Assembly (NCBI GenBank): GCA_021849295.1
Contig: JAJZTA010000004.1
Location: 62,001 to 126,000 of the forward strand
Direction: 5' to 3'
Length of the DNA: 64,000 bases
Source: Pseudomonadota bacterium
GTDB taxonomy: Bacteria; Pseudomonadota; Alphaproteobacteria; Micavibrionales; UBA2020
Under the pieces are notes generated by a model that did no database searches, had not been told where the DNA came from, and was given only the letters and a program-made list of their open reading frames with translations. Both the position numbers and the translations under genes were made by a program. Positions 6,842 to 26,192 of the stretch are shown here, one piece after another (positions within the stretch are counted from its first letter, which is position 1; each line of letters starts with the position of its first letter).

Positions 6842-7300
6842 TCCTCCCCATAGTTCAATAAAAAAGTTAAGCCTTCGTTTAAATCTGAAAACCGTACGAA
6901 GAGATTATTCATCAATGTAGCAAAATGATACGCATTTATACTTCTATGTAAATGATGCGACACCATTCCTATCGTACTTTTAGCGACTGACCATTTTGAC
7001 AGATTGACAAAATGATTTATCAATTTGCACTGCTTATGGACATTCGCAGCCGGATGCACTATCTATCAGCATCCCGTCCGCAGACACTCGAAAGTTGCCG
7101 GTTGGCCGATTCTCGCAGTGGGAAATATCACAGGCCCGCCGCCTATTAAAAACAATAAGTTTCAATGTATTAACAAATCATTAAAACTTCTTTAAGCAAT
7201 ATTTCATTGATTAAAGATAAAATATTAGGTGATAGTCTTTAAAATGCCGGTGGCTTGTGTGCGGTGTAGTATGCCTGAAATATGGGGCGGGCAATTTAAA

Positions 7301-8560: not shown

Positions 8561-9882
8561 TGAAGGAGCGAAAAAAACATATGGCATACAGCCGCCAAAC
8601 ATCCCGCGGATTTTCTCTCGTCGAGGTTATGATCGCAGTCGCGCTCTTCGGCATTTTCACTGGCGTCCTCATACAACAGTACACCCAATGGCGCCTGAGG
8701 CAGATACATAACCTGACGACATCGCGGCAATTTGCGGTTCAAAACGCGCTGTCGCAATATGTTCTCGAATACGGCGCACTGCCCTGTCCGGCCGACCCTG
8801 CCATACCTCCGACAGCCCCGACCGCGGGTCAGGCGGATTGCATGAATCTGGACAACTACGATCATACCACCGGCGTCGGTCCGGCGTATCCGCCCAATAT
8901 CTCATGGCCGCACTGCAACGCGAATCAGGAATGTATCGTGGCCGGCGCCCGCGCGACAATAGACAACCCGACCTTTGACCCCAATACAGGTCAAAGGACA
9001 TATAACGACCCCGTTCTGATCGGCACGATCCCTTATGTTGCCTTGGGCGTCAGTTTGAATGATACGATCGACGGCTGGGGCAACCGCATGACCTACGCGG
9101 TGTCCTATTATGCCACCGATCCGAATTTATTCAACTACTCGACCCTCGGCGGTGCCATCAACATCGAAGACTTCGATACCGGCCAGAACAAGATCGCACC
9201 GATGCTGAACAACGATCTGGATCCGGGCTATCAAAGCGCCAAATCTTTCATGTTCGTCTTCCTGTCGGCGGGCCCCAACGGCCGCGGCGCCTGGAATTAC
9301 GAAGGCGCGCAGCCCAACCCCTGCCAGATGGGCGTGCCGATCGCCCTGGACTCGACGTACACGGGGCCTTCGACGGGACGGGACAATGAAAACTGCAACA
9401 ATGATTCCACGTTCCTTTACACCGCAAACAGCAGCTCTGCGGGCGCGCAGGATATCTATTCGACCGCCACCGGTCCTTTCTTCGATGACGACTACTTCAT
9501 GGTGTGGCAGCTCGATCTCTCTCAGGACGCATGGATGGCCTACTCTCAAAACCTTAAAAGGGCAGGGAATAAAACCGGCGGAAAAGTCGGCATCGGCACG
9601 TCGGCGCCGACTGTAAACCTCGACGTCATGGGCAACATCAAGGCCGACAACGTCCAGTCAGATATTTACTGCGACGAGACCACCGGAAAATGTTTCAATC
9701 AGCAGCTGCTCTCGCCCGGGCTGGATTGCAATAACGGGATCATGACCGGCATCGCCAACGGTCAGCCGCAATGCCAAACAATGATCGACTCATCGCAAAT
9801 TCAAAAGCCGCAGCAGTGCCCCCCGGGGGAATTCGTTACTTCAATTGTAAACGGAGTTATACAATGCAATTTTCCTCCTTAA
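8560..9882 (+). CDS. Large prepilin-like protein 2 with tail-fibre-like C-terminal motif
   Basis: SRGFSLVEVMIAVALFGIFTGVLIQQYTQWR prepilin signal; C-terminal GGKVGIGTSAPTVNLDVMGNIKADNVQSD. Start ATG overlaps previous stop (TAATG); alternative start 8581. Confidence 0.85.
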   Translation: MKERKKHMAYSRQTSRGFSLVEVMIAVALFGIFTGVLIQQYTQWRLRQIHNLTTSRQFAVQNALSQYVLEYGALPCPADPAIPPTAPTAGQADCMNLDNYDHTTGVGPAYPPNISWPHCNANQECIVAGARATIDNPTFDPNTGQRTYNDPVLIGTIPYVALGVSLNDTIDGWGNRMTYAVSYYATDPNLFNYSTLGGAINIEDFDTGQNKIAPMLNNDLDPGYQSAKSFMFVFLSAGPNGRGAWNYEGAQPNPCQMGVPIALDSTYTGPSTGRDNENCNNDSTFLYTANSSSAGAQDIYSTATGPFFDDDYFMVWQLDLSQDAWMAYSQNLKRAGNKTGGKVGIGTSAPTVNLDVMGNIKADNVQSDIYCDETTGKCFNQQLLSPGLDCNNGIMTGIANGQPQCQTMIDSSQIQKPQQCPPGEFVTSIVNGVIQCNFPP

Positions 9883-12227
9883 GAAACAGTCATAAGGATA
9901 ACAGCTTCATCCGGGGCTATACGCTGCTTGAGTTGGCCGTCGGCCTGCTCATTATGGGGGTCATGCTGGCCAGCATCAGCCATGTCTCCACCCAGTATTT
10001 GAAAGCCGAAAAGGAGAATACGACGCTGAACAACGAGAGCCTTCTCACCTCCGCCATCAACAGCTATCTGGCGGAAAAAGGCCACTACCCCTGTCCGGCG
10101 CCGTTCGTGCCGCGCACGGACACCGCAGACTACGGCATAGCCGGAGACTGCACGGACACCAGCGTCAACGTGGGCGAGTGCAACAAAAATGGCGGCACGG
10201 CGTCAGACAACTATTGCGTTCAGCAAAGCGACCGGGTGCTTTATCCGAAAATCCCGACCGCTCCCGGCTATCAACCTGCCGACTGGCCGCCCTCATGGTC
10301 TGTTAACAACGGCGGGCAGCCGGTCTGGCCGCCCCAGGCCTGGAACGGGCGCGTGCGCCGCGGTGAAGTGCCTTTCCGTACGCTCGGCATTCCTGAATAT
10401 GAAACGCTGGACGGCTACGGCGACGAATTTCAATATGTTGTCACGGAAAATCTGGCCGTCAACGGGCGATACAACAAGGATCTCGGCGGCATAGACGTTG
10501 TCAACGGCAGCGCCACCGTTCCGGTGACCGCAACCAACCTGACAGGCCATCCTTCTCTGGTTCCCACGCCGAAAGACAGCTCAAGCGGCGGGGCCGTGCA
10601 ATACATCCTCATCAGCAACGGCCCCGACAGGAGGGGCGCTTACACACAGTACAGCGACCTGAACCACCCCGTCTATCCGTGCCCGCTGATTACGGCGCCG
10701 TATGTCCCCTCCACACTGGACGCAGCCAACTGCCAGATCACCGCAGGAAACTGGACGGATGCCATTTACTACTCGGCCGAATACGCTCCGGCCTCCGGTC
10801 CGAGCCATTTCGATGATTTGATTAAATACTATACATCCACCACAACCCCGCTCTGGGAAGTGTCGAACGACACCAGCGGCTCCATCCACGACGTCCTTAA
10901 CGCGACCGACCAGCAGAACCACGGCAAAGTCGGCATAGACCGCTCTGATCTCGCCGTTCTCAATCCGGCACCTGATGCGGCACTGCAAGTCGGCAGCCCC
11001 AACTCCAACACCGTGGCCGTGCTGGCGCAACCCACGATCGCGGGCACGGGGGATCTGGTCACGCAAAACCTCTGCTCGCAAGGCTCTCTCAACAGCAATT
11101 GCGTTCAGGCCGACCTGAGCCCGACATGCCCGGGAGGCAAAATAGCCACCGGCTTTGAAGGGAGTAGCAACCACCTGAACTGTACCGATCATACAGCAAC
11201 GACCTGCCCCCCCAATGAACATATGTACGGGATAGACGCAAACGGGCAAATTCTCTGCTCGTCCACGCTGTCGTGCCCGAACAGCTCGACGTGGATGTGC
11301 GGCAATTGGGTCGGCATTACTTCCAAAAATGTCGGCGCGACGGAAACGGTGACGTCCGGCTACAATTCGTCAAAGACCTTCCAGTGCGAGGACCAGAACG
11401 GCCCGCAATGGGTTCTCCAGTCGCAAACCGGAAGTTGTACCCAGTGCAATCAAGGGTCGCAGACCAACAACATAAGCTGCAACCAATACAAAAACTGGTG
11501 GCCTTGTGGCAGTTGCTGGAGCGGCACCGTCCAACAGACGGTCACCACGAGCTGCAACCCGACGAACGTGCAGACGACTTACAGCAATACCGGCTCCTGT
11601 GTTTGCAACTCGACCTCCTACCCCCAGAACGGCATACAATGCCCGGCAGGGTTTACGGGGACCTACTCGACGAACCAAACATACGTCTGCGGCGCTAACC
11701 CAAGCACGCCCGCATCTGGACCGAATTACAGCTCGACCCAGTCGACCAGCTGCTTCTGCGACCCGACCGCGACGCAGAATCAAACGCTCAGCTGTCAGTC
11801 GGCGGGCTATAGCGACGGTTATTCCGGCCATGTGAAGCAAACACGCCAAATGCAGTGCACCTCGGCCAACACAGGCAACTGGGGTCAGTGGACGACTATC
11901 CCTAACGGCGATACCTGCACTTGCAGCAATATCATACAGTACCAGCAGATCGGCTGTCCCTCGCCGCAACAAGGCACCCAATACCAGCAGCGGCAGTTCG
12001 ATTGCAACGCGAACTCCTGGGGCAACTGGGTCACGACCAGCAACACCTGCGCTTCGCTCAGCTATCAATGGAGCCTCAGCAACGGCGAAATGCCGAGCGG
12101 GACAACCAGCATCTCTCAGTCCCCAACCCTCGGCTCCAGCTGCTCGACGAACGGCGCGGTGTCGCCCTGCTACGCGCCGACCGGAACCGGCAGTTACTAC
12201 AGTTACTCCAGCTGTATTTGCCAGTAA
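9864..12227 (+). CDS. Large prepilin-like protein 3 with Cys-rich tandem-repeat C-terminus
   Basis: IRGYTLLELAVGLLIMGVMLASISHVSTQYLK prepilin-like signal; ATG 9864 lies inside the end of the previous gene; long Ser/Thr/Gln/Asn/Cys-rich C-terminus. Confidence 0.85.
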   Translation: MQFSSLRNSHKDNSFIRGYTLLELAVGLLIMGVMLASISHVSTQYLKAEKENTTLNNESLLTSAINSYLAEKGHYPCPAPFVPRTDTADYGIAGDCTDTSVNVGECNKNGGTASDNYCVQQSDRVLYPKIPTAPGYQPADWPPSWSVNNGGQPVWPPQAWNGRVRRGEVPFRTLGIPEYETLDGYGDEFQYVVTENLAVNGRYNKDLGGIDVVNGSATVPVTATNLTGHPSLVPTPKDSSSGGAVQYILISNGPDRRGAYTQYSDLNHPVYPCPLITAPYVPSTLDAANCQITAGNWTDAIYYSAEYAPASGPSHFDDLIKYYTSTTTPLWEVSNDTSGSIHDVLNATDQQNHGKVGIDRSDLAVLNPAPDAALQVGSPNSNTVAVLAQPTIAGTGDLVTQNLCSQGSLNSNCVQADLSPTCPGGKIATGFEGSSNHLNCTDHTATTCPPNEHMYGIDANGQILCSSTLSCPNSSTWMCGNWVGITSKNVGATETVTSGYNSSKTFQCEDQNGPQWVLQSQTGSCTQCNQGSQTNNISCNQYKNWWPCGSCWSGTVQQTVTTSCNPTNVQTTYSNTGSCVCNSTSYPQNGIQCPAGFTGTYSTNQTYVCGANPSTPASGPNYSSTQSTSCFCDPTATQNQTLSCQSAGYSDGYSGHVKQTRQMQCTSANTGNWGQWTTIPNGDTCTCSNIIQYQQIGCPSPQQGTQYQQRQFDCNANSWGNWVTTSNTCASLSYQWSLSNGEMPSGTTSISQSPTLGSSCSTNGAVSPCYAPTGTGSYYSYSSCICQ
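11274..12050 (+). repeat. Coding tandem repeats (~50 aa units with conserved Cys) in pilin-like protein 3
   Basis: Units such as IQCPAGFTGTYSTNQTYVC...TSCFC, LSCQSAGYSDGYSGHVKQTRQMQC...DTCTC, IGCPSPQQGTQYQQRQFDC...NTC, ISCNQYKNWWPC...GSCVC. Confidence 0.75.
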
Positions 12228-12273: not shown

Positions 12274-13401
12274 CTAGTCTTTGGCGGCACCTGATGTCCT
12301 GTTTTGCTTCTGGGGATCGTCTTCGGTCATGTTCGCCTGCCGGTACTGGGTCGGCGTGAGACTGGTGACGTCGCGGAAAGCGCGGTTAAACGACGCCAGA
12401 GAATTGAATCCCACCTCCGAGGCCACCACCTGTATGGGGATCTCCGGGCTCATCAGCATCCTTTTCGCATCTCCCACGCGGAACTCGTTAAGCAGCCGCG
12501 GCACACTCTTGCCGAAGGCCACGTTGATCACCCGTGAAAGCGTGTTCTCCGACACCTGCAGCTCGCGCGCAAGATCAGCGCGGCTGAAGGCCTGCTCGTG
12601 ATAGAGCTTGTCCACCTCCATCAGCTTTTTGACTTTGGCAGCGATCTCTTTTTCCTCCGCCGTCATCGTTTGTCTGGTGAAGCGGGTCGGCTTGTCGCTC
12701 AGCTGAACCGGCGACGGAAAGACGCGGAACAGCATCGTGCTCGCAAGATAGACGAAAGACAGGCCCAAAACGACAAGCAGCGTATCCGCCGTCGGCTGGT
12801 CCAGACTGTTCATGGAACGCAGGAACATGATGCCGACGGCACCCGCATTTGCAACGATCAGCACCATCACCAGCCAGTAGCGCTCCATGCCGCTCCTGGC
12901 ACTCCGCAAAGTGCTAAAAAGGTTTTTATGGCCCCACAGCGCCAGCATGGCAAGGCCGCCGGCAATCGCACCCAGCCATTGCAGCCAAAGAAACAAGCTC
13001 GGGCATAAAGTGTCTCCCGCTGTGCAAATGCCTGCCGTTTTATCAATAACGACCCCCGCCAGCAGCGACAGCGGCGCCAGCGTCAAAAACAGGAACTGCC
13101 GCCCTTCCGGCAGGCCCGCGCCCTTCGCGATTTGCAGAACCAGCAGATAGCACAAAAGCGGGCCCAAAACGCGCATAAACCACAATGCCAGTTGTATGCC
13201 CTGATCGTAGTCATGCAAGCGCATGGAAAACTGCAATGCAAAAGCCAGCCCTAGAACAAAGAAATAGGCCAGCGCCAGCGAGGCCTGTTTCCAGTCCCTA
13301 ACGCGGAACACGATATGCACGATAATCAGCACGCACTGGGCGAATCCCGTGATAGCCAACCATTCTATGACACTAAAGGTGTTTTCAAATATGGAAGGCA
13401 T
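12274..13401 (-). CDS. Membrane-anchored AraC-family transcriptional regulator
   Basis: Multiple hydrophobic segments in the N-terminal half followed by a C-terminal AraC HTH (FSRADLARELQVSENTLSRVINVAFGKSVPRLLNEFRVGDAKRML...VASEVGFNSLASFNRAFRDVTSLTPTQYRQ). Confidence 0.9.
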   Translation of the reverse strand: MPSIFENTFSVIEWLAITGFAQCVLIIVHIVFRVRDWKQASLALAYFFVLGLAFALQFSMRLHDYDQGIQLALWFMRVLGPLLCYLLVLQIAKGAGLPEGRQFLFLTLAPLSLLAGVVIDKTAGICTAGDTLCPSLFLWLQWLGAIAGGLAMLALWGHKNLFSTLRSARSGMERYWLVMVLIVANAGAVGIMFLRSMNSLDQPTADTLLVVLGLSFVYLASTMLFRVFPSPVQLSDKPTRFTRQTMTAEEKEIAAKVKKLMEVDKLYHEQAFSRADLARELQVSENTLSRVINVAFGKSVPRLLNEFRVGDAKRMLMSPEIPIQVVASEVGFNSLASFNRAFRDVTSLTPTQYRQANMTEDDPQKQNRTSGAAKD

Positions 13402-13404
13402 GAC

Positions 13405-14157
13405 TTAAGGCTGCCTCCCGCGCTCTTTCAGAATATGTTGCACTGCCTGCGGCGACATGCCGACCTGATGGATCAGAAAAAACGTCATATTGGAGATGTC
13501 TTGCGGCGAAATATCTTTCTGCGTGCGGAGCATATCGATCATGAGAGCGCGCGCCGCTTCCTTATCGCCCTGCTTTTCAAGAACGAATGCGGGCATCTGC
13601 CGCGCCCATGCGGGCATTTTGACGCTTTGCGGCATGTGCGCGAGGATCTGCGCCAGACGCAAGGCGAGGTTCTCGTTATACATCCGGTGCTGCGCAAGAT
13701 AGATCGCCTGCACAAGCCAGCGCCATTTGGCGCCGAACGGCTCCTGACCGACGGCGGCGAGATAACGGACGACGACCGCGATATCGGCCGGCACGCGCGT
13801 CGCCCCGAAATAATAGGCAGCCAGCGTCGGCACGTGGTCGGACACCGGATCAAGGCTGCTCAGGAGCAAAAACCACTTTCCCAGTTCGTGATAATTATAA
13901 TCCTTCAGAGGCGCCATGTTCACGCCGAGGTTACCGAGATTTTGCAATGACAAAGCAAGAATGCGGTATGAAAATTCCGGGTCGCCCAGCGTCATCATAA
14001 CGGCGCCTGTCCTGTCCGGCACCGGCGGCACGCCTGACCAGCGCTGGTAAACGTCATGGCTGGCGCACCAGAAGAGAAAGTTCACACAAAGAATGGCGGC
14101 AAGAACGAGCTTTATACCGCGCAGTCTGTCCTGCATTTTCCCCCTGCGGGCAGCCAT
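13405..14157 (-). CDS. Hypothetical membrane-anchored protein, translationally coupled to ABC permease
   Basis: 250 aa, one N-terminal TM segment, helical remainder; ATG overlaps the permease stop codon (TAATG). Confidence 0.75.
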   Translation of the reverse strand: MAARRGKMQDRLRGIKLVLAAILCVNFLFWCASHDVYQRWSGVPPVPDRTGAVMMTLGDPEFSYRILALSLQNLGNLGVNMAPLKDYNYHELGKWFLLLSSLDPVSDHVPTLAAYYFGATRVPADIAVVVRYLAAVGQEPFGAKWRWLVQAIYLAQHRMYNENLALRLAQILAHMPQSVKMPAWARQMPAFVLEKQGDKEAARALMIDMLRTQKDISPQDISNMTFFLIHQVGMSPQAVQHILKERGRQP

Positions 14158-14978
14158 TAAAATTGCCGCCGCGTAAAATCAAAAGCCGATGCCGCCAGCA
14201 ACAGCGCAACAAAAACCATCCCTTGCATCGCAATAAAACCGGTCACGCCCAAGTGCACTACCACCCAATGCGCGTAAACGCTTGCGTGCGGCATAAACTG
14301 CAAACCGGCAGATCTCCGCACGCCATAGACAAGCCATGTCGTCTGCCCCATCATGTCAAGGCGCGGCGTCACCATGGAAATCAGCTTCATCATACTGCCG
14401 ATAATGGCGTAAAACCAGTTCGTCGGTCCCTGACTGAGGACGCCAAGCAGCGTGCCTGTCGTGCGAGAAAGCGCGTAAAGCCCTAGTGTGGCAAGGGCAG
14501 AGCCCGCCGCGCTCGACAGCACCATGGAAAAAAACAATGCCGCCACAGCCATCATCGCGAACTCGGCAGCGAGGCTTGCGCCCCAGATCAGAAGCCCTTC
14601 CATGTTGGGATGCCCTATGACGCCGACCACGACGGTGATCATGGCGGCAATCAGAAAAGCCAAAAAGGAAAAGGCCAGCGCGTGACTGACGAGAAAAGAC
14701 AAACGCGAGATCGGCCGTGAAAGCAAAAACTCGACCTCTTTGTTTTCAAAGGCACGGCGGATGTAAAAGCAGCAAAACAGCACAAGGCCGATGACGCCAA
14801 GAAAGCGCAGACTGCCTGACCCGAAAACCAGCGCAAAACTGGCTCCCTCCGTGACGCTCGCCGACCCCATGAAGACGGACAGCGCAGCCCCCATCAGGAT
14901 CATGAGCGCAAGGGTTACCATCAGCCTGTCCCGCATCGCGGCAGTCAGCACGTATTTAACCAATGGTTTGGAGATCAT
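14157..14978 (-). CDS. ABC-2 type transporter permease
   Basis: 273 aa with about six hydrophobic helices; FENKEVEFLLSRPISRLSFLVSHALAFS is typical of ABC-2 permeases. Confidence 0.75.
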   Translation of the reverse strand: MISKPLVKYVLTAAMRDRLMVTLALMILMGAALSVFMGSASVTEGASFALVFGSGSLRFLGVIGLVLFCCFYIRRAFENKEVEFLLSRPISRLSFLVSHALAFSFLAFLIAAMITVVVGVIGHPNMEGLLIWGASLAAEFAMMAVAALFFSMVLSSAAGSALATLGLYALSRTTGTLLGVLSQGPTNWFYAIIGSMMKLISMVTPRLDMMGQTTWLVYGVRRSAGLQFMPHASVYAHWVVVHLGVTGFIAMQGMVFVALLLAASAFDFTRRQF

Positions 14979-14997
14979 ATAAATGACCTTTTAATCG

Positions 14998-16833
14998 TTA
15001 CATATTGAAGGGGCGCGTATCGTTGCCGAACTCCTTGTAAACGCGCCGGTCCACGGGTTGGACATTGGATCCCGGCACAATCGTCGCCTGCAGGAAGATA
15101 ATCAGCTCGCTTTTGTTGATGTTGTCGCCGTGATTGTGGAACAGGCTCCCCAGAAACGGCACATCTCCCAAGACAGGGACACCTATCTGATTGACCTGAT
15201 TGGAGTTCTGCATCAAGCCGCCCATCACCATTGTCTGGCCGGACTGCATCTTGATAACGGAATCCATCTGCTGCACGTCCATGACCGGTATCGGGCTGTT
15301 GGGCACGGCTGACAGAGGCAGGCCGGAACTCAGAATACTAAGAGCAATGGAGGGATCTTGAGCCTTATCGATTTCCTTCGTCACGGTCGGACGCACCGCC
15401 AGCATGACCTCGCCGGTACTGACATCGGCCGTCGGCGTCACGTTCATCAGGACGCCTTCGGGCGTCGATTCCTGCTTGGAGTTATAAGTAATCGTCGGAG
15501 GAACCCCAACGGCCGTGGACGGCGTCGTTGTCACCTTGATCTCGAAGTAGATCAGGTTCTTGGCTACGTTGACGACGGCAGACTGGTTATTCATCACCGT
15601 AATGCGCGGACTGGCCAGAGAGCGCACCGTGCCGAACTCGCTCAAGGCGGTAATCACAGGCTTGAACCCGTGACCAAGATCAAGATTCAGCGCAACAGCA
15701 CTGCCCGTCGTATCGGCGGGGCTAAACGGCGGCGCCGGCGTATTGATCGTAGCGGCAGGAATAAGGCGCGTCAGGTTTGCGCCCAATTGCCCCCAATCAA
15801 TACCAGTGGAATATTGGTCGTTAAGGGTCACCTCAAGAACCTTGGCTTGAATCAAGACCTGTGCCAGCGCCTGATGGAGGTAGTCGTCCAGATATTTCTG
15901 TACCAGCTTTTGTTGCCGTTGCGTGGCATAAACACTGATGATTCCGGTATCCTTACTGATAGAAAACGTCGCGGGCGCATTCTTCTGCGGCGCCGATCCA
16001 CCGGAAACAGAAACATTCAGCGACGGTGGCATATTCGATGGCTTTGGCGCAGGTGCAGGCGCGCCCGGCTTGCCGGGAAGTGCGGGCGGTGCAAGCGGCG
16101 GTACAACCGATGCCACGGGGTTATTCATGGTCGCCAGAGCCGTATAGTTGTCGGAAGCTTTCAAAATCTGGTCCATGCCGGATTTAAGATCCTTCCAGAA
16201 ATCCACGTCGTCTTTAATATCGACACTGAAGTTGGATCCCGAACTGGCGCTCGGACCGCCACCAGTGCCACCGGCACTGCCACTAGAGATACCTGTCTGG
16301 ATAGTGGACGTGCTTGTGCGCGAAAGGCTCATGTAATCGACTTTATAGTACTTGATATAAGGCCTATCGAGTTCGATACGCAGCACGTTGTTCTTGAACG
16401 TATAGCGCAGTCCAGCCATATTGCAGATGCGATCAACGACCTCGTTGAACGGACGGTCTTTGGCGGTAAAAATAATCGACCCCTGAATGTCGGGATCCAT
16501 TTCAAGGTCAACGCCCGCCTGATGCGCCAATTCAAACATCAGGTCGCGCAGCGATACGGTCTGGTCGACAGAAACCGTCACCAGCGGCGACGGCAGTTGC
16601 AAGTCGCTCGGCGTAGCGACGAAAGACTGGAACGGAGGCAGCGGCGCTTCTTTCGCGGTTTTGGGCTGACGCTGGGGCGACAGGCCATCACGATAATATT
16701 GCATGCTCTTGTTCGCGCTGCGGTCATATGTCATCTGGTTTTGGGCAAGAGTGCACCCCCCCAAAGATATGGTAGAAAGCATAGCGCCGAGAACTATATA
16801 GCTGACGCGGAAGGAGTAACGCGATTTTGACAC
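14998..16833 (-). CDS. Type IV pilus secretin, MshL/PilQ-like
   Basis: Lipoprotein-like start (LGGCTLAQNQ), N0/STN region (LRDLMFELAHQAGVDLEMDPDIQGSIIFTAKDRPFNEVVDRICNMAGLRY) and secretin domain (GVPVLGDVPFLGSLFHNHGDNINKSELIIFLQATIV). Confidence 0.92.
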   Translation of the reverse strand: MSKSRYSFRVSYIVLGAMLSTISLGGCTLAQNQMTYDRSANKSMQYYRDGLSPQRQPKTAKEAPLPPFQSFVATPSDLQLPSPLVTVSVDQTVSLRDLMFELAHQAGVDLEMDPDIQGSIIFTAKDRPFNEVVDRICNMAGLRYTFKNNVLRIELDRPYIKYYKVDYMSLSRTSTSTIQTGISSGSAGGTGGGPSASSGSNFSVDIKDDVDFWKDLKSGMDQILKASDNYTALATMNNPVASVVPPLAPPALPGKPGAPAPAPKPSNMPPSLNVSVSGGSAPQKNAPATFSISKDTGIISVYATQRQQKLVQKYLDDYLHQALAQVLIQAKVLEVTLNDQYSTGIDWGQLGANLTRLIPAATINTPAPPFSPADTTGSAVALNLDLGHGFKPVITALSEFGTVRSLASPRITVMNNQSAVVNVAKNLIYFEIKVTTTPSTAVGVPPTITYNSKQESTPEGVLMNVTPTADVSTGEVMLAVRPTVTKEIDKAQDPSIALSILSSGLPLSAVPNSPIPVMDVQQMDSVIKMQSGQTMVMGGLMQNSNQVNQIGVPVLGDVPFLGSLFHNHGDNINKSELIIFLQATIVPGSNVQPVDRRVYKEFGNDTRPFNM

Positions 16834-16892
16834 CTGAACGATCCCATCTCTTCGAGAAAATATGATTAACGATAACCCGCTTCGGATTATTG

Positions 16893-18023
16893 TTACAGAG
16901 ACAATCTGGATGTGTCAATGCCAAGCGACGACGAGGGCATCGCGCCCTGATCCGCCATCTGGTGCTGCTGGATTTTGATTTTCATATCCGCAGAATAGTC
17001 GGATTCCGACAATGCCGTTTGTGCGGTAATCAGCCCTTTTTTGTAGAGCTTCAAAAGCGACTGATCGAACGTGACCATGCCGGTCGTATTGTTGTTGGCC
17101 ATAACGTCGTGAATTTTACTGGTCTCGCCCTTCATGATGTGCTCTTTGACCAACGCTTCGTTGAGCAGGATCTCCGGAACCATCACCAGGCCGCCCTGCG
17201 TCCCCGGCACAAGCCTGAGCGCAATGATCGCCCTGAGGTTCATGCTCAGCGCGATGCGTATCTGATGGTGACGCTCCTCGGGGAAGAAGCCGATAATGCG
17301 CTCGATCGCCTGCGTCGCATTGGTGGTGTGCAGCGTCGCATAGCAGGTATGGCCGGTTTCGGCGGCCGCGATCGCCTGAATCATGACGTCCTGATAGCGG
17401 ATTTCGCCGACGAGGATCACGTCGGGCTTTTGCCGGAGGGCGTTTTTCAGCGCGACGCTGTAGGAGGCGGTGTCGATCCCCACTTCACGCTGCGTGATGA
17501 TGGCTTTTTTATGTTCGTGATAGAACTCGACCGGATCTTCGATGGTGATGATGTGACCGCCCATCATGGAGTTGCGGTAGTCCATCAGCGCGGCGGTCAA
17601 AGTCGATTTACCCGACGACGTCACGCCGCAAATCAGGATCAGGCCGCGCTTTTCCAGCGCCAGCTTTTCCATGAGCTTGGGCAAATACAACTGCTCGAAG
17701 TTGGGAATCCTGCTGGTGATGCGCCGGATGACGAGCGCCGGTTTCTGGCGCTGGCGCAGAATGTTGATGCGGAAACGTCCTTCCGCGCCAAGGTCGAGCG
17801 CCATGTTGAGTTCCATGCTGGTATCGAACTCGAGGCGCTGGCGGGGCGTCAGGATTTCCATCATGATCGCCTGAACGTCCTCTTCCTTCAGCGCGTCTCC
17901 CTCGAGCGGGTGGAGAATGTTGTCGATACGCAAGGTCGGCGGCACGCCGACCGTGAGGTAGATGTCCGACGCCTCCCGCTCCACCATTGCCTTGAGATAG
18001 TTGTATATCGCAGCACTGCTCAA
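16893..18023 (-). CDS. pilU: PilU-like type IV pilus ATPase
   Basis: GVTSSGKSTL Walker A, EDPVEFYHEHKKAIITQREVGIDT Asp box, LVGEIRYQDVMIQAIAAAETGH; divergent from but similar to PilT. Confidence 0.85.
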   Translation of the reverse strand: MSSAAIYNYLKAMVEREASDIYLTVGVPPTLRIDNILHPLEGDALKEEDVQAIMMEILTPRQRLEFDTSMELNMALDLGAEGRFRINILRQRQKPALVIRRITSRIPNFEQLYLPKLMEKLALEKRGLILICGVTSSGKSTLTAALMDYRNSMMGGHIITIEDPVEFYHEHKKAIITQREVGIDTASYSVALKNALRQKPDVILVGEIRYQDVMIQAIAAAETGHTCYATLHTTNATQAIERIIGFFPEERHHQIRIALSMNLRAIIALRLVPGTQGGLVMVPEILLNEALVKEHIMKGETSKIHDVMANNNTTGMVTFDQSLLKLYKKGLITAQTALSESDYSADMKIKIQQHQMADQGAMPSSSLGIDTSRLSL

Positions 18024-19204
18024 AATGAATATCCTTCCTCGCCCGGCGGGTGCGCGGCGGGTGCGCCGGGCGCCGCGGCGGGCGCCCGCGGCGCGGCGGC
18101 TGGCGCGGGTTTGCGCATCATCGGCTGTTGCGGCGGCGGCGGCGCTTTCGGCGCAGCATCGTCGGCCGATTCCGCCTCGGCGCCCGATTTCAGCGCGTCG
18201 CGCGCGGTCTCGGCCGTAATCAGCCCGTGCTCCTGAAGATCGTGGACGGCATCTTCCATCGTCTGCATGCCGTAGCGTGCACCGGTCTGGATCATCGAGT
18301 AGACCTGCGCCAGCTGGTTCTCGCGGATCAGGTTGCGCACGGCGTTGGTGCCGACCATGATTTCGTGGGAAGCGACGCGTCCGCCGCCCGCTTTGGGCAA
18401 CAGCGCCTGCGCGACGACGCCTTGAATGGAGCTGGCCAGCATCGCGCGCACCATTTCTTTTTCCGCCGCTGGGAAAACGTCGATGATACGGTCGATGGTT
18501 TTGGCGGCGTTGTTCGAGTGCAGGGTTCCGAAGACAAGGTGACCCGTTTCGGCGGCGGTGAGTGCAAGAGCGATCGTTTCATAGTCCCGCATTTCGCCGA
18601 CCAGAATGACGTCAGGGTCTTCGCGCAGCGCGCTTTTAAGCGCGCGGGCGAATGATTTGGTATCGTTGCCGACTTCACGGTGGTTGACCAGCGCCATTTT
18701 CGACGGATGGAAAAATTCGACCGGGTCCTCGACGGTCAGGATGTGCACGGCTTCGTGTTCATTGATATGGTTGATCATCGACGCCAGCGTGGTCGATTTG
18801 CCGCTGCCCGTCGGCCCCGTGACAAGCACGAGCCCCTTTTCAAGTTCCGCGAGCCTGCGGATAACGGGCGGCAGCGAGAGCTGCTCCATGGTCGGGATTT
18901 TCGTCGGAATGACACGGAATACGGCGGCGGAGCCCTGCCGGTTGGTGAAGGCGTTGACGCGGAAACGCGCGTCGGGACCGAAGGCGATGGCGAAGTCGAT
19001 TTCGAAGTCGCGCTCGTACTCCGCGCGCTGGTCTTCATTCATGACCTGATACAGCATGCCGCGAATATCGTCGCCCTGCAGGATGTCCGGCTTGACTTGG
19101 CGCAATACGCCGTCGATGCGCACTTTCGGATTATTGCCTCCGCTCAAGTGCAAATCCGATGCCTTGTTGTCGAGCGTAAACTTGAGAAACTCTGTAATAT
19201 CCAC
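18020..19204 (-). CDS. pilT: PilT type IV pilus retraction ATPase
   Basis: GPTGSGKSTTLASMI, EDPVEFFHPSKMALVNHREVGNDT, and the PilT-specific AVRNLIRE motif. Confidence 0.92.
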   Translation of the reverse strand: MDITEFLKFTLDNKASDLHLSGGNNPKVRIDGVLRQVKPDILQGDDIRGMLYQVMNEDQRAEYERDFEIDFAIAFGPDARFRVNAFTNRQGSAAVFRVIPTKIPTMEQLSLPPVIRRLAELEKGLVLVTGPTGSGKSTTLASMINHINEHEAVHILTVEDPVEFFHPSKMALVNHREVGNDTKSFARALKSALREDPDVILVGEMRDYETIALALTAAETGHLVFGTLHSNNAAKTIDRIIDVFPAAEKEMVRAMLASSIQGVVAQALLPKAGGGRVASHEIMVGTNAVRNLIRENQLAQVYSMIQTGARYGMQTMEDAVHDLQEHGLITAETARDALKSGAEAESADDAAPKAPPPPQQPMMRKPAPAAAPRAPAAAPGAPAAHPPGEEGYSF

Positions 19205-19325
19205 GACTTGCCCCCTGTTGTGTCATCCCCGTATATCCACCTTCAAGAGTACGCAAATACCCTGAAAGAATGGTAAATATATATTAACATAAGGTTAAAA
19301 AAGCGCTTTATTCACGCGCAGAATG

Positions 19326-20111
19326 TCAAAGCGATATGAAATGCGGCGGGAAAAGGCACAAAACCACGATAAAAGCGATGATCAGCGACGGGCCGAAAGG
19401 CACTTCGGCCTCTCCCGTGCGCTTCTTCCACAAGAGCGCCAAAACAACCCCCGCTCCGCCGGAAACGACCATCAGCAGCGATGCCGCCATCGCGTTCAAC
19501 CCCAGCCAGAATCCGGCGGCGGCGAAAAACTTGACGTCGCCCAGCCCCAGCGCCTCGCGCTTCAGGACGGCAAACGCGCCCCGCCGCAACAGCCAGGCAA
19601 AGCCGCCATAAAGCAGCGCACCGGCCAGCGGCGGCACGATATGCGCACTAAAAAAAACCACCGGATGCGCGGCCAGCGCCGCATTGACGGCAAACGCCGC
19701 CACGCCGATAAGCAAGATGGCAAGGTTCAGGCTGTCGGGAATAATCTGGTGCCCGAAATCGATGTCGATGATGCTGACCAGCACGGGCGCCAGCGCGAAC
19801 ACGGCGATCGTTTGCGGTGTCAGTCCGTAAACGAAGAAAAAAAGCATGCACACCCCCAGCGTCGCCAGCTCGATCAGAGGATAGCGCACGCCGATGCGCG
19901 CGCCGCAGTGGCGGCATTTGCCTTTGAGGAAAAGCCATGAAAACAGCGGTATGAGATCCGGAAGGCCAAGATTGTGATGGCAGGACGGACATTGCGAATG
20001 CACGCGCGTCACCATGGAGATTTCACGCGGCAGACGATGGGACAAAGCCGTGGCGAAGCTGCCGAAGATCAGCCCCAGCCCCGCTGCAATCACCGCCTTG
20101 ATATAGAACAT
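19326..20111 (-). CDS. pilD: Prepilin peptidase (A24 family)
   Basis: FGSFATALSHRLPRE, two CxxC pairs (CPSCHHN, CRHCGAR), DIDFGHQIIPD and GLGDVKFFAAAG aspartate motifs. Confidence 0.95.
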   Translation of the reverse strand: MFYIKAVIAAGLGLIFGSFATALSHRLPREISMVTRVHSQCPSCHHNLGLPDLIPLFSWLFLKGKCRHCGARIGVRYPLIELATLGVCMLFFFVYGLTPQTIAVFALAPVLVSIIDIDFGHQIIPDSLNLAILLIGVAAFAVNAALAAHPVVFFSAHIVPPLAGALLYGGFAWLLRRGAFAVLKREALGLGDVKFFAAAGFWLGLNAMAASLLMVVSGGAGVVLALLWKKRTGEAEVPFGPSLIIAFIVVLCLFPPHFISL

Positions 20112-20118
20112 GCCGGCT

Positions 20119-21432
20119 TTACCGGAGTGTCGATAAACGCTGCCTTATATCGTCAAGCGGCAGGGATGCGTTCAGAGCGCCTTCGCTCGCGAGGTCCAAA
20201 ATGCGGCGGTACAGTTCCGCGGCACGGGATGTCTTGCCAAGATGGTCATAGACAACGGCGCGGTTGTAAAGGATAACGCCGTCGCCCGGCTCCAGGGCAT
20301 CCGCCATGTCGAGATACTTCAGCGCGTTGCTGTAATCTCCGGAAACGCCGTAGAGCATCCCCAGCTGCGCCGTGACCGCGGCGTTGGCCGGATAGAGGTG
20401 ACGCAATTTCTGCATCGCGTCGATCGCCGACTGCGTGTTCTCGCCCTTGATCAGGCCGAGGGTGTTGGTCATCGCCGACACGCTCTCCGGATCGAGTTTC
20501 AGGATGCGTTTGTAAGTATCGAGCGCGGCGCCTGTCTCGCCCAGTCTTTGCAGCGCGACGGCACGGCCCATCAGGACGCGCAGGTCGGTCGTATTGCGGT
20601 GGAACAGGTCGTCGAACAACCCCAGCGCCGCCGCATAATGCCCGTCGGACAAGGCTCGACGCGCGGACGAAAGCCGCGATTCGTAGCTACTGTCCGTGCT
20701 GTAATCCCTGTGCACGACCAGATATTGCGTCGGCAACGGGCGCACCTGCGCCGGCGTCGCCAGAATGTCGGTGACGCGCAGACCTTTATCCGTCGCCGCG
20801 CGGTTTTTCGCACGCATCGCGCGGATGCTGGCTGCGGACGGCTTGGCCGTACTGCTTGCGTTCTCGCCCGCTTTCAGCTTGGAGGCGCTTTGAACAATGG
20901 CCATCTCGGCGGGAGACGGCTGGGCGGAGGATGTGCCCATCTCGGCGGCGGGCGCGATCGCCGCCGCAACATTATCCAAAGACGGCTGGGCGGAAGAAGG
21001 TCCCGCAGACGCGGGGATCGATGGCACCATTCCCGAAACGGCAGCCCCCGAAGATGCGTCCGTGCCGGACATGGGCGTTCCGGAAGACGCCGTCCCCGAA
21101 AATGAAGCGTTCGCGTCCGACGATCCGGAGGCTGCCGGCGCCACATTTATCAGCGGCGCCATTTGCACCTGCGGTACCGAGGGCGATACCTGCGCTGCAT
21201 TTGACGGCTGCGCCAGAGTCGCGGAAGACGGCGGCTGGGCCATGCTTGTGGGCAGTGACGGCGTCGCCATCCTCGGCGGAGCCGATGTCGCAGTGATCTG
21301 TGCCGGCGCCATCGGCGTTGCCGTCTGCGCCAGAGCAGACCCCGGTGCGCTGGCCGCAAGCAACAGGACAAATCCGGCTTGCCGCAACACAGCCGACTTG
21401 CCCTCAACACGTTTTACCCCAGACATTTTCAT
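20119..21432 (-). CDS. TPR-repeat protein with Ala/Ser/Pro-rich linker, pilus-operon associated
   Basis: Signal peptide, low-complexity linker with SSAQPS repeats, C-terminal TPR motifs (AALDTYKRILKLDPESVSAM, NALKYLDMADALEPGDGVILYNRAVVYDHLG). Confidence 0.85.
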   Translation of the reverse strand: MKMSGVKRVEGKSAVLRQAGFVLLLAASAPGSALAQTATPMAPAQITATSAPPRMATPSLPTSMAQPPSSATLAQPSNAAQVSPSVPQVQMAPLINVAPAASGSSDANASFSGTASSGTPMSGTDASSGAAVSGMVPSIPASAGPSSAQPSLDNVAAAIAPAAEMGTSSAQPSPAEMAIVQSASKLKAGENASSTAKPSAASIRAMRAKNRAATDKGLRVTDILATPAQVRPLPTQYLVVHRDYSTDSSYESRLSSARRALSDGHYAAALGLFDDLFHRNTTDLRVLMGRAVALQRLGETGAALDTYKRILKLDPESVSAMTNTLGLIKGENTQSAIDAMQKLRHLYPANAAVTAQLGMLYGVSGDYSNALKYLDMADALEPGDGVILYNRAVVYDHLGKTSRAAELYRRILDLASEGALNASLPLDDIRQRLSTLR

Positions 21433-22211
21433 GATTCATAAACCCCTGCAGAATTCTCGATAATTTTTAGAAACGCCCGCTCCAGACTGTCGTTTTTCAT
21501 TTTTTCCCTCAGTTCCGCTGGCGTTCCGAGGAACCTTAAAGACTTATCATGTATTATGCCGATCCTGTCGCACAATTCATCCATATCCGACAAAATATGC
21601 GTGCTTAAAAATACCGTCATCCCCTGGTTACGGCAAGCAACAATCTCGTCTTTTACCAGAACGCGCGCACGCGGATCAAGACCGCTCATGGGTTCGTCCA
21701 AAATCAGCAGCGGGCACCCTGTCAGCCAGCTGCCCATCAGGCCGAGTTTCTGGCGCATGCCCTTGGAATAGGTATTGACGCGGCGGCCCAGCGCCTCGCG
21801 CGACAGGGAAACGCGGTCGGCGGCCGCCAGCACCGCCTCTTTGTCGAAGGAGCGTTTGTAAAGATCAAGCGAAAATTTGATGAACTCGAAACCGCTCAGG
21901 AAAACCGGCGGCTCGAACTTCTCCGGCAGGTAGGCGATCATGGATTTACTCTCTTCGTCGCCACTATCCCGCCCGAACAGCAAAACCGATCCCGCCGAGG
22001 ATTCCATCAGGCCGAGGATGATCTTGATCAGCGTCGTCTTGCCCACGCCGTTCAGCCCGATGAGGCCAAACGTCTCGCCCTTGCGCACATCGAATGAAAT
22101 ATTTTCGATCACGTTGGCACCGCGGCCGTAATGCGCCGAAATGCCGTCGATGGCTATTGCGGCCGCAGCGGTTTCCTGCGCGGGGGATGTCATTTTTCTT
22201 GCCCCCACCAT
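21429..22211 (-). CDS. ABC transporter ATP-binding protein embedded in the pilus operon
   Basis: GLNGVGKTTLIKIILG Walker A, NTYSKGMRQKLGLMGSWLTGCPLLILDEPMSGLDP signature and Walker B; 4-bp overlap with the TPR gene, 1 bp from the PilP-like gene. Confidence 0.93.
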   Translation of the reverse strand: MVGARKMTSPAQETAAAAIAIDGISAHYGRGANVIENISFDVRKGETFGLIGLNGVGKTTLIKIILGLMESSAGSVLLFGRDSGDEESKSMIAYLPEKFEPPVFLSGFEFIKFSLDLYKRSFDKEAVLAAADRVSLSREALGRRVNTYSKGMRQKLGLMGSWLTGCPLLILDEPMSGLDPRARVLVKDEIVACRNQGMTVFLSTHILSDMDELCDRIGIIHDKSLRFLGTPAELREKMKNDSLERAFLKIIENSAGVYES

Positions 22212-22212
22212 A

Positions 22213-22752
22213 TCAATGCGCCCCCGGCAACAACACGCCCGACGTGATATCGTATGTCTGGTTCGGACGCAGCGTCAGCGCAATAACCTCGTTCAATCCG
22301 ATGTCGTACCATTGGAGATGCACCCGTGAAGACGGGCTGACGTGGATGGAAACGATTTCAGGCAAAAGGTTGGCAGGCGTCACCTTCTGGCCGTTCATCC
22401 AGACCACCCAGTCGCCCGGAGCGCGGTAGTAAACGCCCGACAGGCGAATGATGCGGCGCTTTGGAATAGGAGTCTTTGACTCTTCCACCGCCTTCTTGAG
22501 AACGTTTCCTTTCAGGGCCTGTTCGATCTCTGCAATTTCCAGCGGCGAGAAGAAGAAGGATCCGCGAAAAATCTTGTTGATTTCAGATTCCGGCGTCGCC
22601 GCTACGCCGGTAGCCGTCTTCGAAGCCGCGGGCTTCTCCGAAGCCATTTGCATCATGGCTGGCATGTGCACAGCAGGCTGCGCGGCAAGTGCCTGCGCGC
22701 CCCAAAGACATATAAAAACAGCCAAAACCTGCGCCCGTTTCACCACTATCAC
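22213..22752 (-). CDS. PilP/GspC-like pilus accessory protein (tentative)
   Basis: Secreted/anchored 179 aa protein in the position of PilP; RIIRLSGVYYRAPGDWVVWMNGQKVTP resembles pilus/T2SS periplasmic connector domains. Confidence 0.5.
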   Translation of the reverse strand: MIVVKRAQVLAVFICLWGAQALAAQPAVHMPAMMQMASEKPAASKTATGVAATPESEINKIFRGSFFFSPLEIAEIEQALKGNVLKKAVEESKTPIPKRRIIRLSGVYYRAPGDWVVWMNGQKVTPANLLPEIVSIHVSPSSRVHLQWYDIGLNEVIALTLRPNQTYDITSGVLLPGAH

Positions 22753-23408
22753 CGCCCCCTGAATCCGTTAGAGCCATTTTTTTTGGCGGGTGCGTTCGGC
22801 ACCAAGGTTATCCATTCAAACACAACAGAGGCGTTCACAAAGTTAACCTGTTTCCCGTCAGAGAGGAGTTTCAGTGTCTGCGAGTCCACTTTTGCGGCCC
22901 GCTGGATTTTCATTTCCTGCAGGCGCGTGTCGACAGGGAAGACTTTGCTAATAGACTGCGCCAACATATATATGTTGGCATCAAGCGGAGAACTGATGTG
23001 ATCCACAGAAATCCGACTACCGAGCAACTCATAATGGATAGAGTCGGCATCACGGTTCGTAACCTTGGTCGCGGCCGCAACATTGTAGGAGAAACTGGAA
23101 ATCCCCGCCGCCTCGCGCAGTTTGTTGATCTCGTTCTCGAGCATAAAGCGGTTGTGCGTCAGGAAAAAACCGTCCTGTTGCATCTGCTCATACTTCGGCA
23201 TATTCGCCTTCATGAAAGCCGCGGCGCGTTTAGCGCCCGCGATCTGTGCATTGAGACTAGATATCTGGCCTTGCGTAGATTGCGTTTGCGACTGTGCCTC
23301 GCTGAGCATCGGCCCGACGGCGAAGAAATAAATCCCTGCCGCCACCAGATTCATCGCAATGATGCAGGCAATAATGATGATACGTCTTAATCCGACAAGC
23401 TTTATCAT
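22749..23408 (-). CDS. PilO/GspM-like pilus assembly protein (tentative)
   Basis: 219 aa with one N-terminal TM and coiled coil, overlapping neighbours by 4 bp at each end, located between PilM/N-like and PilP-like genes. Confidence 0.6.
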   Translation of the reverse strand: MIKLVGLRRIIIIACIIAMNLVAAGIYFFAVGPMLSEAQSQTQSTQGQISSLNAQIAGAKRAAAFMKANMPKYEQMQQDGFFLTHNRFMLENEINKLREAAGISSFSYNVAAATKVTNRDADSIHYELLGSRISVDHISSPLDANIYMLAQSISKVFPVDTRLQEMKIQRAAKVDSQTLKLLSDGKQVNFVNASVVFEWITLVPNAPAKKNGSNGFRGR

Positions 23409-24976
23409 AGCGGTGGCCCACTTAACTCAATCGCGGCGCCGCTATCCGCCGTGTTGGAACTGTTTGACCCGGCGGGCGACGCGCCCGACGCCCCCTGGAA
23501 TCCGCCGGCTGCGGATACGTTACCGAATTGGTGCTTGATATCAACCATGTAACCAGGGAATTTGCCTTGCAATATCGTCACCATCCCGTTCACGCGGTCG
23601 ACCTTCTGCTGCAGGCTCAGAGCGCCCGTAATATCGAACTTGAAGCTTATCTTGACCTTGCCCGTTTCCTTCTTCCTGCTGAAGAAGTTCTTTTTTGGGG
23701 CCGGCGGACTATATCCGATCGTGAGTTCGTTCAACTTGATATCGTTCGCCAGCGCTCCGCGCAAAAGGTTCAATATCGGCGTGATATTGACCCCCTCGTC
23801 GTCGACCGACTTTTTAATAGACAGTATTTTTTTAAGGACGTCGGGCTTGAACGGATAAGTATCAAATATTCGCGATTCCTTGGCGTATTCACTCTTCAAG
23901 TAATCGAGTTGCGAATACAACCCCGCCAGATTGCTCTTCACGGCCATGTAATTGGTGTACTGCATGCCGATGAAGCCGCTTCCAGCCAGAAAAGTCAGCA
24001 TAAACAAAATGGAAAGAATTTGCAGCACCTTACGCGGCACCATGATGCGCTTGACGCTGGGCACGGTGATCGGGATCGTCAGCGCCCTCTTACGGCCCGC
24101 CCAGGCGCAATGCACCGCGTCGCCGAAATTGGTTTCGCCCAGCGATGCGCCCTTCATCCCCAGCGCATTCAGCGCCTCGACGGGCGTGAGACAGCGGAAA
24201 TTCGTTACCGGCAGAGATTTGTCGCTGAAAAACTGCTTTTCGATGTTGCTGCAAATCACCATCACGTCGAGGCCCTCTTCCGCCGTATAGCCGAAGCGGG
24301 CGATATAGGTGAGCGTAGCCTTGAACTCGCGCATGACTTCATCCGCCCAGGCAGGGCCATAGGTCCCCGCCTCCGACGTCGGCGTGATGCGGGTCAGAGC
24401 CAGCGTGCCGTTTTTCACGACGACCTGACGCAGGCCGCCCGTCTCGTGCTGGCTGATCAGCACCGCCCAGCGTGACGGCTTCTCCGCATTCTCGAACGTT
24501 TTTGCGGCGAGCGTCTTGACTAGCCCGACGGATTCCGCGGGCAGCAAGCCAAAGCCGGAAATAAGCACGCCCGCATCCAGCATGTCGGCGGCAAGCTCGT
24601 CGAGGCGGTCCGTCTCGGGCAGCGCGACGAACAGGTAAAAGGGCTTCTCTTTCGGCGGCTTGACCAGCATCGAGGCGCGCACCGGATAGCTCGGGAAGGC
24701 CTGATCGAGCTTGCGTTTTATATACTTCGAGCGGTCGAAGGGCGTCAGTTTCGGAAGCTGATCTTCCTTGCGGTAGGTCTGGTCGGCACCGTCGAACAGG
24801 ATCAGCACAGGAGCCTTACTGCCCCCCTCGAGGATCTCCGTCAACTGACGGTTGAAATCGGGCATCTCCCACGACAGCGCGGCTTCGCGTTCGATGCCGC
24901 GTGATGTCGGGCCGAACAGCGTGACACCCTCGCCGCCGACCATCAAGACCCGTTTCTTTGAAATCGAAAAGCCCAT
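23405..24976 (-). CDS. PilM/PilN (GspL)-like pilus assembly protein
   Basis: Actin-like N-terminal half followed by a TM segment and periplasmic PilN-like region (LQILSILFMLTFLAGSGFIGMQYTNYMAVKSNLAGLYSQLDYLKSEYAK); 523 aa. Confidence 0.65.
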   Translation of the reverse strand: MGFSISKKRVLMVGGEGVTLFGPTSRGIEREAALSWEMPDFNRQLTEILEGGSKAPVLILFDGADQTYRKEDQLPKLTPFDRSKYIKRKLDQAFPSYPVRASMLVKPPKEKPFYLFVALPETDRLDELAADMLDAGVLISGFGLLPAESVGLVKTLAAKTFENAEKPSRWAVLISQHETGGLRQVVVKNGTLALTRITPTSEAGTYGPAWADEVMREFKATLTYIARFGYTAEEGLDVMVICSNIEKQFFSDKSLPVTNFRCLTPVEALNALGMKGASLGETNFGDAVHCAWAGRKRALTIPITVPSVKRIMVPRKVLQILSILFMLTFLAGSGFIGMQYTNYMAVKSNLAGLYSQLDYLKSEYAKESRIFDTYPFKPDVLKKILSIKKSVDDEGVNITPILNLLRGALANDIKLNELTIGYSPPAPKKNFFSRKKETGKVKISFKFDITGALSLQQKVDRVNGMVTILQGKFPGYMVDIKHQFGNVSAAGGFQGASGASPAGSNSSNTADSGAAIELSGPPL

Positions 24977-24977
24977 T

Positions 24978-26192
24978 TTAACTCGTCATCTTACCCAGAT
25001 TGTTGTAAATCGGACCGAAGACGGCCGCTGCGATCCACAAGACGATCAGACCCATGATAACCGTCATCGTAGGCTCGATCATTTGAATCATGGCGTCAAT
25101 GGCGTCGTTCACGTCTCTATCGTAAAATTCTGTCACCTGCTCCAGAACGCCGGTCAAGTTGCCTGATTCCTCGCCGACTTTCACCATGCGCGTGACTAGC
25201 GTCGGGAACTCGCCGGACTTCGCCATGGAATCCGACAGCGCAAAGCCTTCCTGCACGCGTTCCCGCACCGTCGCCAGTGCTCCTGTCAGAACAAGATTGG
25301 TCACTGTCAGCTTGGCGGCGTCGAGACATTTCAAAATTTCCAGACCGCTGCTGAAAAGGATGCCGAACGTCGAGCAAAACTGCGCCAGTGAAATCTTGCG
25401 GATCAAATTCCCCGACACGGGCGCGTTCAGGAACATGTAGTCCGTATAATACCGGAATCCTTCCGATATCACGCGTCCGATCTTGAACAGGATATAGAAC
25501 AGGATCATGCCCAAGATGATGTAAATGGCATATTTACCCATGAAATCAGAGGTGGCGATCAGCGCCCGCGTCTGTACGGGCAGCTTCATGTTCATATCTT
25601 TAAGGAAGCTCACGATTTGTGGAACGACCTGCACCATCATCACGTAAACGACACCCGTAATAACGACGAGAAGAACTTTCGGATAGCGCGTCGCTTTCTT
25701 GATCTTGCTGCGCATGGCGTCCACCCATTTGAGGTGGCGGATCACCTGCCCGAAGGACGTCACCATGTTACCCGTTTCCTCGCCGGCAGCGATCAGGGAG
25801 ACAAATATATTCTCAAAAACCGTCGGATGACGGGCCAAAGCGGCGGAGAAGGATTGCCCTTCCGCCACCTCGCGGTAAACATCCGACATGATGTCGCGCA
25901 GCCGCGGCGCTTCCGTGGTGTCGCGCACATCCGACAAACCTTCCAGCAACGGCACGCCCGCCTTTTGCAGCTGCTCCAGATGGACGAACATCTGCACCAG
26001 ATCGCGGATCTTGATTTTCTTGGCAAAGATGTTGACAATACCGCTGGCCTTCTCGGACATTTCCTTGCAATCGATCAGCGCAAGGCCGCCCTCTTCAAGG
26101 CGCGACGACAGGTCGGACTCGTTCGCGGCGGCGATCACGCCACGGATAGGCCGGCCCTTGGCGTTTATAGCCCTATAACTGAATTTCGGCAT
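24978..26192 (-). CDS. pilC: Type II secretion/type IV pilus inner-membrane platform protein (GspF/PilC)
   Basis: MPKFSYRAINAKGRPIRGVIAAANESDL; FSAALARHPTVFENIFVSLIAAGEETGNM; VGEESGNLTGVLEQVTEFYDRDVNDAID. Confidence 0.94.
   Translation of the reverse strand: MPKFSYRAINAKGRPIRGVIAAANESDLSSRLEEGGLALIDCKEMSEKASGIVNIFAKKIKIRDLVQMFVHLEQLQKAGVPLLEGLSDVRDTTEAPRLRDIMSDVYREVAEGQSFSAALARHPTVFENIFVSLIAAGEETGNMVTSFGQVIRHLKWVDAMRSKIKKATRYPKVLLVVITGVVYVMMVQVVPQIVSFLKDMNMKLPVQTRALIATSDFMGKYAIYIILGMILFYILFKIGRVISEGFRYYTDYMFLNAPVSGNLIRKISLAQFCSTFGILFSSGLEILKCLDAAKLTVTNLVLTGALATVRERVQEGFALSDSMAKSGEFPTLVTRMVKVGEESGNLTGVLEQVTEFYDRDVNDAIDAMIQMIEPTMTVIMGLIVLWIAAAVFGPIYNNLGKMTS

Follow-up and report, generated by a model that had tools for sequence, protein, structure and literature searches.

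The PilG, PilH, and PilI proteins of Myxococcus xanthus have long been regarded as special to Myxococcus, and the job recorded for them, pilin export, reportedly goes back to mutant work of 1998. The pilA, pilG, pilH, and pilI genes form one operon, and PilG, PilH, and PilI make up an ABC exporter (PMC3546991) that has been catalogued as required for assembling the pilus and exporting PilA (PMC3924187). Deletion of pilG, pilH, or pilI causes an EPS defect that pilB-WA suppresses in each case, as it does in a pilA mutant, and the authors of that work, citing the 1998 study, described all three proteins as indispensable for moving pilin through the inner membrane (PMC3724824). A survey that selected by similarity and by distance from the cluster reported hits in almost all bacteria (PMC6060248), and the Micavibrio genome paper describes dispersed pil genes and leaves ABC transporters unmentioned (PMC3189940).

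The window, by which we mean the whole 64,000-nucleotide stretch of DNA that was analyzed, contains a minus-strand type IV pilus operon, apparently of the MSHA type, with 13 genes running from 26192 to 12274. Gene identities were assigned by Pfam and NCBIfam profile searches, by structure models, or by position and are given here in operon order, followed by the nearby pilin genes.
24978 to 26192, minus strand: PilC/MshG-type platform protein, operon gene 1 (Pfam T2SSF, E 2e-52)
23405 to 24976, minus strand: PilM+PilN-like fused protein, 523 aa (position and layout; kept between pilC and the pilO-like gene)
22749 to 23408, minus strand: PilO-like protein, 219 aa (position; one N-terminal hydrophobic segment; conserved order)
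22213 to 22752, minus strand: PilP-like protein, 179 aa (position; conserved order)
21429 to 22211, minus strand: ABC ATPase, putative PilH role (ABC_tran, E 2e-24; motifs; trees)
20119 to 21432, minus strand: TPR protein in an MshN-like position, 437 aa (TPR matches; 4-bp overlap with the ATPase gene)
19326 to 20111, minus strand: PilD prepilin peptidase (A24_N and Peptidase_A24)
18020 to 19204, minus strand: PilT-type ATPase (TIGR01420, 474 bits)
16893 to 18023, minus strand: PilU-type ATPase (TIGR01420, 394 bits)
14998 to 16833, minus strand: secretin, probably MshL-type (best NCBIfam match MshL, TIGR02519, 204 bits, below the cut-off of 250; Pfam Secretin)
14157 to 14978, minus strand: ABC-2 permease, putative PilI role, 273 aa (AF2 model; NosY and PmtD folds; PmtD by sequence)
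13405 to 14157, minus strand: one-TM helical-repeat helper, putative PilG role, 250 aa (AF2 model; 60-member alignment)
12274 to 13401, minus strand: membrane-anchored AraC-type regulator, last operon gene (HTH_18, E 9e-21)
5990 to 6751, minus strand: probable major pilin (FTLVELAIVLVIIGLLIGGILKGQ; open reading frame; N_methyl, E 8e-9)
7229 to 12227, plus strand: three large prepilin-like proteins of 443, 444, and 818 aa (N_methyl matches)

From pilC on, the successive junctions measure 1, -4, -4, 1, -4, 7, 121, -4, 59, 19, -1, and 3 bp. The tight spacing described in an earlier note on this DNA was reproduced: a single base pair separates the ATPase gene from the PilP-like gene before it, its other end shares 4 bp with the TPR gene, 19 bp lie between the secretin and permease genes, and the permease stop is shared with the start of the one-TM gene in a TAATG at 14157. 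On the basis of this spacing, the ABC genes are likely to be co-transcribed with the pilus genes. All coordinates in that account were correct, although the AraC-type regulator at the operon end had gone unmentioned; the separation of ATPase from permease also stood, except that the TPR gene lies between them in addition to the pilD-pilT-pilU-secretin segment that had been named. A promoter and terminator scan gave only a modest excess over shuffled sequences (13 versus 8.4 and 25 versus 19.1), uninformative for the operon limits. The regulator combines a long hydrophobic N-terminal half, with several TM segments, with the AraC-type HTH, and most related loci have such a regulator behind the helper gene. 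The PilM+PilN-like protein is a core pilus gene product by position, although none of 21 relatives gave a convincing sequence match to Pfam or the PDB, and a Pfam search of the PilP-like protein was without match. The pilin genes lie within ∼6 kb of the operon end; two of the three large prepilin-like proteins contain IGTxxPxxxLDVxG-like motifs reminiscent of the tail-fibre proteins of phages, and the C-terminal part of the largest (818 aa) is cysteine-rich. The PilB of the same genome is encoded on another contig (G000 contig C1, L259:7793-10168); it is 791 aa long, with an unusually long N terminus and an MshE-type c-di-GMP motif (NF053729, MshEN), and it presumably serves the pilus of the window. 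A PilB-like gene lies immediately upstream of pilC in many genomes of relatives.

The locus was compared across 55 genomes from 30 genera of the order to which the window's genome belongs, apparently Micavibrionales. The permease was present in 44 of the 55 genomes and in 26 of the 30 genera. Of 40 fetched loci, 32 have the complete nine-gene stretch that runs from pilP through the one-TM gene, always in identical order and on the same strand. Scanning the named contigs of genomes turned up 79 loci, titled Alphaproteobacteria, Rhodospirillales, Proteobacteria/Pseudomonadota, or Micavibrio; this set overlaps the 40 fetched loci and is not independent of them. The secretin gene immediately preceded the permease gene in every one of these 79, and the abcA-tpr-pilD-pilT-pilU-secretin-perm order was intact in 59 of the 60 contigs carrying both ABC genes, including two contigs whose secretin ORF is split; the single exception (L149) is without pilD-T-U. 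Among the 11 permease-less genomes, 10 were missing PilMN and the cognate secretin and retained at most distant secretins, and in the eleventh (G014), whose assembly is fragmented, PilMN is found at a contig end. Thus, the synteny and co-loss tests indicate that the ABC genes are not in the pilus operon by chance, and their order-wide conservation and joint loss with the pilus uphold the earlier claim that they are members of it. The same pilus cluster without ABC genes, which had been proposed as a counterexample to look for, was found nowhere inside the order; one divergent cluster of this kind occurs elsewhere in the class (G272).

Across 289 genomes of the class, the helper was detected in 10, PilMN in 10, and both in 9, leaving a single mismatch in each direction (Fisher p 3e-15, a statistic that ignores kinship). 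The genome behind the first mismatch is 80% complete. The second comes from G272 (1.5 Mb), where the exception is real: its PilC-MN-O-P cluster is divergent and has no ABC genes in the vicinity; other pilus genes are also lacking near this cluster (L312), which is possibly a reduced or different machine. In six further alphaproteobacterial lineages the ATPase gene stands at the end of pilB-C-MN-O-P (in L261 behind a pilB-C-MN-O cluster in which a pilP gene was not detected), and the permease and helper genes accompany the secretin in most, pilD in L254, and lie apart from pilus genes in L256. The ATPase half and the permease/helper half are ∼70 kb apart in G164. Judged from this distribution of gene orders, the split between ATPase and permease/helper is old.

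Pilus-linked modules were also found farther afield. Genomes of another class that carry the magnetosome protein MamA, and are probably Magnetococcia, have permease-helper-pilin-ATPase inside pilus clusters, with some ATPase copies (L265-L267) distant from any pilus gene. The class of G579, by inference gammaproteobacteria, has permease-helper-pilin-ATPase in L300 and permease-helper-pilin in L301 and L302. A second, more distant trio adjoins pilBCD or pilCD (L204, L296-L298) or pilins (L294 and L299, as well as L205 and L206 from family f177), and L295 is the only second-trio locus with no pilus gene nearby; in these relatives (L204-L206, L294-L299) the module genes are contiguous. Profile comparison of the first and second trios gave E 2e-15 for the permease and E 5e-6 for the helper, both single-comparison E-values, and unrelated-pair negative controls reached at most ∼5% probability. 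An O-antigen-ligase-like gene (Wzy_C, L299:2698-4326), a candidate pilin glycosylation enzyme, lies between two pilins and the helper-ATPase-permease trio of L299. The trio, which the earlier note had treated as a feature of one alphaproteobacterium, is indeed present there but extends to several Pseudomonadota lineages, and a pilus ABC part thought to be Myxococcus-specific is probably much more widespread.

The Walker A, signature, Walker B, and H-loop motifs of the ATPase are all intact and are conserved in 28 relatives. Its profile reached NosF at E 7e-50 and also matched lipid-moving ABCA proteins. In a first tree, all 32 ATPases of the window's type formed a single group (support 100/97), neighbored by three pilus-linked ATPases of a second type (98/88). 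In a larger tree the window-type group was again recovered (100/98), and the two pilus-linked types were jointly set apart from 15 other ABC-2 and related ATPases (95/92), the second type not being resolved as a single clade. The best ATPase profile scores were 222-406 bits in genomes with the module versus at most ∼172 bits in those without it, the sole exception being G281, an 80%-complete genome. A MacB-type exporter was also considered and rejected, the macB-like ATPase in L187 belonging to a different family (66 bits). The AF2 model of the permease (pLDDT 88) contains six TM helices besides an elbow helix and a coupling helix; its best fold matches were NosY and PmtD (Foldseek probability 1.00, TM ∼0.6, no E below 0.001); a sequence search reached PmtD at E 3e-4. 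The window permease alone gave a weak Pfam ABC-2 match, 22 of 61 relatives matched ABC2_membrane_2, and a search of plasmid records for its relatives was without match. The helper model (pLDDT 92.6) places a repeat made up entirely of helices (∼11) behind a single TM helix; comparison of its fold with the PDB returned weak TPR-like matches, PilF among them, none at E ≤ 0.001, and the helper is a member of no Pfam family.

At the level of genes and trees, then, the trio is conserved, linked to the pilus, and gained and lost with it, and its ATPase sits in a pilus-linked branch. As had been suggested, the ATPase, permease, and one-TM protein resemble PilH, PilI, and PilG in gene content and predicted topology, and it is highly probable from the genomic record that the three constitute a dedicated pilus module. 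Taken together with the pilin-handling steps that we infer for it, a PilGHI-like ABC module of the type IV pilus machine is the likely reading of the locus. In the inner membrane, two ATPases and two permeases would assemble into a NosFY-like exporter; the one-TM helical-repeat protein would sit on the periplasmic face of this exporter and serve as an acceptor or adaptor for pilins, and ATP hydrolysis would pass pilins, or their hydrophobic helix, to the assembly platform. Since all of these proteins would belong to a single machine spanning the envelope, the permease and helper genes would stay beside the secretin gene and the ATPase gene beside PilMNOP. That the module handles pilins specifically, which we suggest because pilin genes adjoin it in other lineages and because of the Myxococcus record and the likeness to PmtD, is a tentative proposal. 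Against the reading as a whole, the ABC genes in the window's order adjoin the secretin and PilP rather than a pilin, the ATPase copies L265-L267 are remote from pilus genes, and to our knowledge the pilins of well-studied pili enter the membrane by Sec/SRP with no ABC transporter involved.

The main rival is a mechanical reading modeled on NosDFY, in which no substrate is moved and ATP-driven motion would be relayed through the permease to the helper to remodel the secretin or the PilMNOP alignment complex. The NosY chains are the nearest folds of the permease, the ATPase profile matches NosF, the permease and helper genes lie beside the secretin in alphaproteobacteria, and a helical repeat is suited to protein binding; nevertheless, we consider this reading unlikely, as the module is beside pilins and not the secretin in Magnetococcia-like genomes and other Pseudomonadota, PmtD, an exporter, is roughly equally close, and the M. 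xanthus record favors pilin export. The trio might instead export a glycan or lipid that decorates the pilins or the nearby surface, the pilin itself not being moved. ABC-2 exporters frequently transport such substrates, and the ABCA matches of the ATPase and the ligase-like gene of L299 point the same way, but the conserved operon is without glycosyltransferases and the trio keeps its place among core pilus genes although neighboring genes differ greatly between genomes, which makes this improbable. Finally, with ∼20 ABC ATPases per genome and function not proven by gene order alone, the genes could encode an ordinary ABC exporter sharing just the promoter of the pilus operon; the fixed order throughout the order, the co-loss with the pilus, the pilus-linked ATPase group, and the recurrence of the same split in other alphaproteobacterial lineages render such a bystander very improbable.

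On the reading of a dedicated pilus module, a large group of Pseudomonadota type IV pili may depend on an overlooked third ATP-driven engine, an ABC transporter besides PilB and PilT, that would deliver pilins to the platform via a new family of helical-repeat helpers anchored in the membrane; we offer this with reserve. The permease is barely annotated at present. The pilus-linked ABC group and conserved helper occur in several lineages, among them relatives of predatory Micavibrio and of magnetotactic bacteria, and these could serve as model systems for testing why certain pili require an ABC transporter. In agreement with the earlier suggestion that the layout may be undescribed, we found no paper reporting the split layout in this pilus type in the literature searched, which lay mostly outside subscription journals.

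The locus shares with the MSHA pilus of Vibrio and Shewanella a TPR protein and an MshE-type ATPase (here elsewhere in the genome), and its secretin has MshL as best match, below the cut-off; it has pilT and pilU inside the operon, and we know of no ABC genes in Vibrio or Shewanella MSHA loci. PmtCD, the phenol-soluble modulin exporter, has a permease similar in sequence and fold to that of the window and moves amphipathic helices, PmtD exporting helical peptides, yet it is a Gram-positive peptide exporter without a pilus link. NosDFY has a similar permease fold, a similar ATPase, and a separate periplasmic partner; that partner, however, is the NosD beta-helix rather than a one-TM helical repeat, the process is different, and the pilus operon is without nos genes. 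M. xanthus PilGHI (TCDB 3.A.1.144.5), likened to the trio by the roles of its parts, also has an ATPase, a ∼250-aa ABC-2 permease, and an accessory protein in pilus operons; the window has the ATPase with intact motifs and the permease of this size beside pilus genes, together with a one-TM protein whose predicted topology is extracytoplasmic. PilGHI is tied to the pilin gene (pilAGHI), as is the helper-ATPase-permease set behind the pilins of the gamma locus L299, whereas in the window no pilin is adjacent and the ATPase gene, between the PilP-like and TPR genes, lies 6.4 kb and five genes from the permease and helper genes, in an alphaproteobacterial setting with a probable MSHA-type secretin and an MSHA-type extension ATPase.
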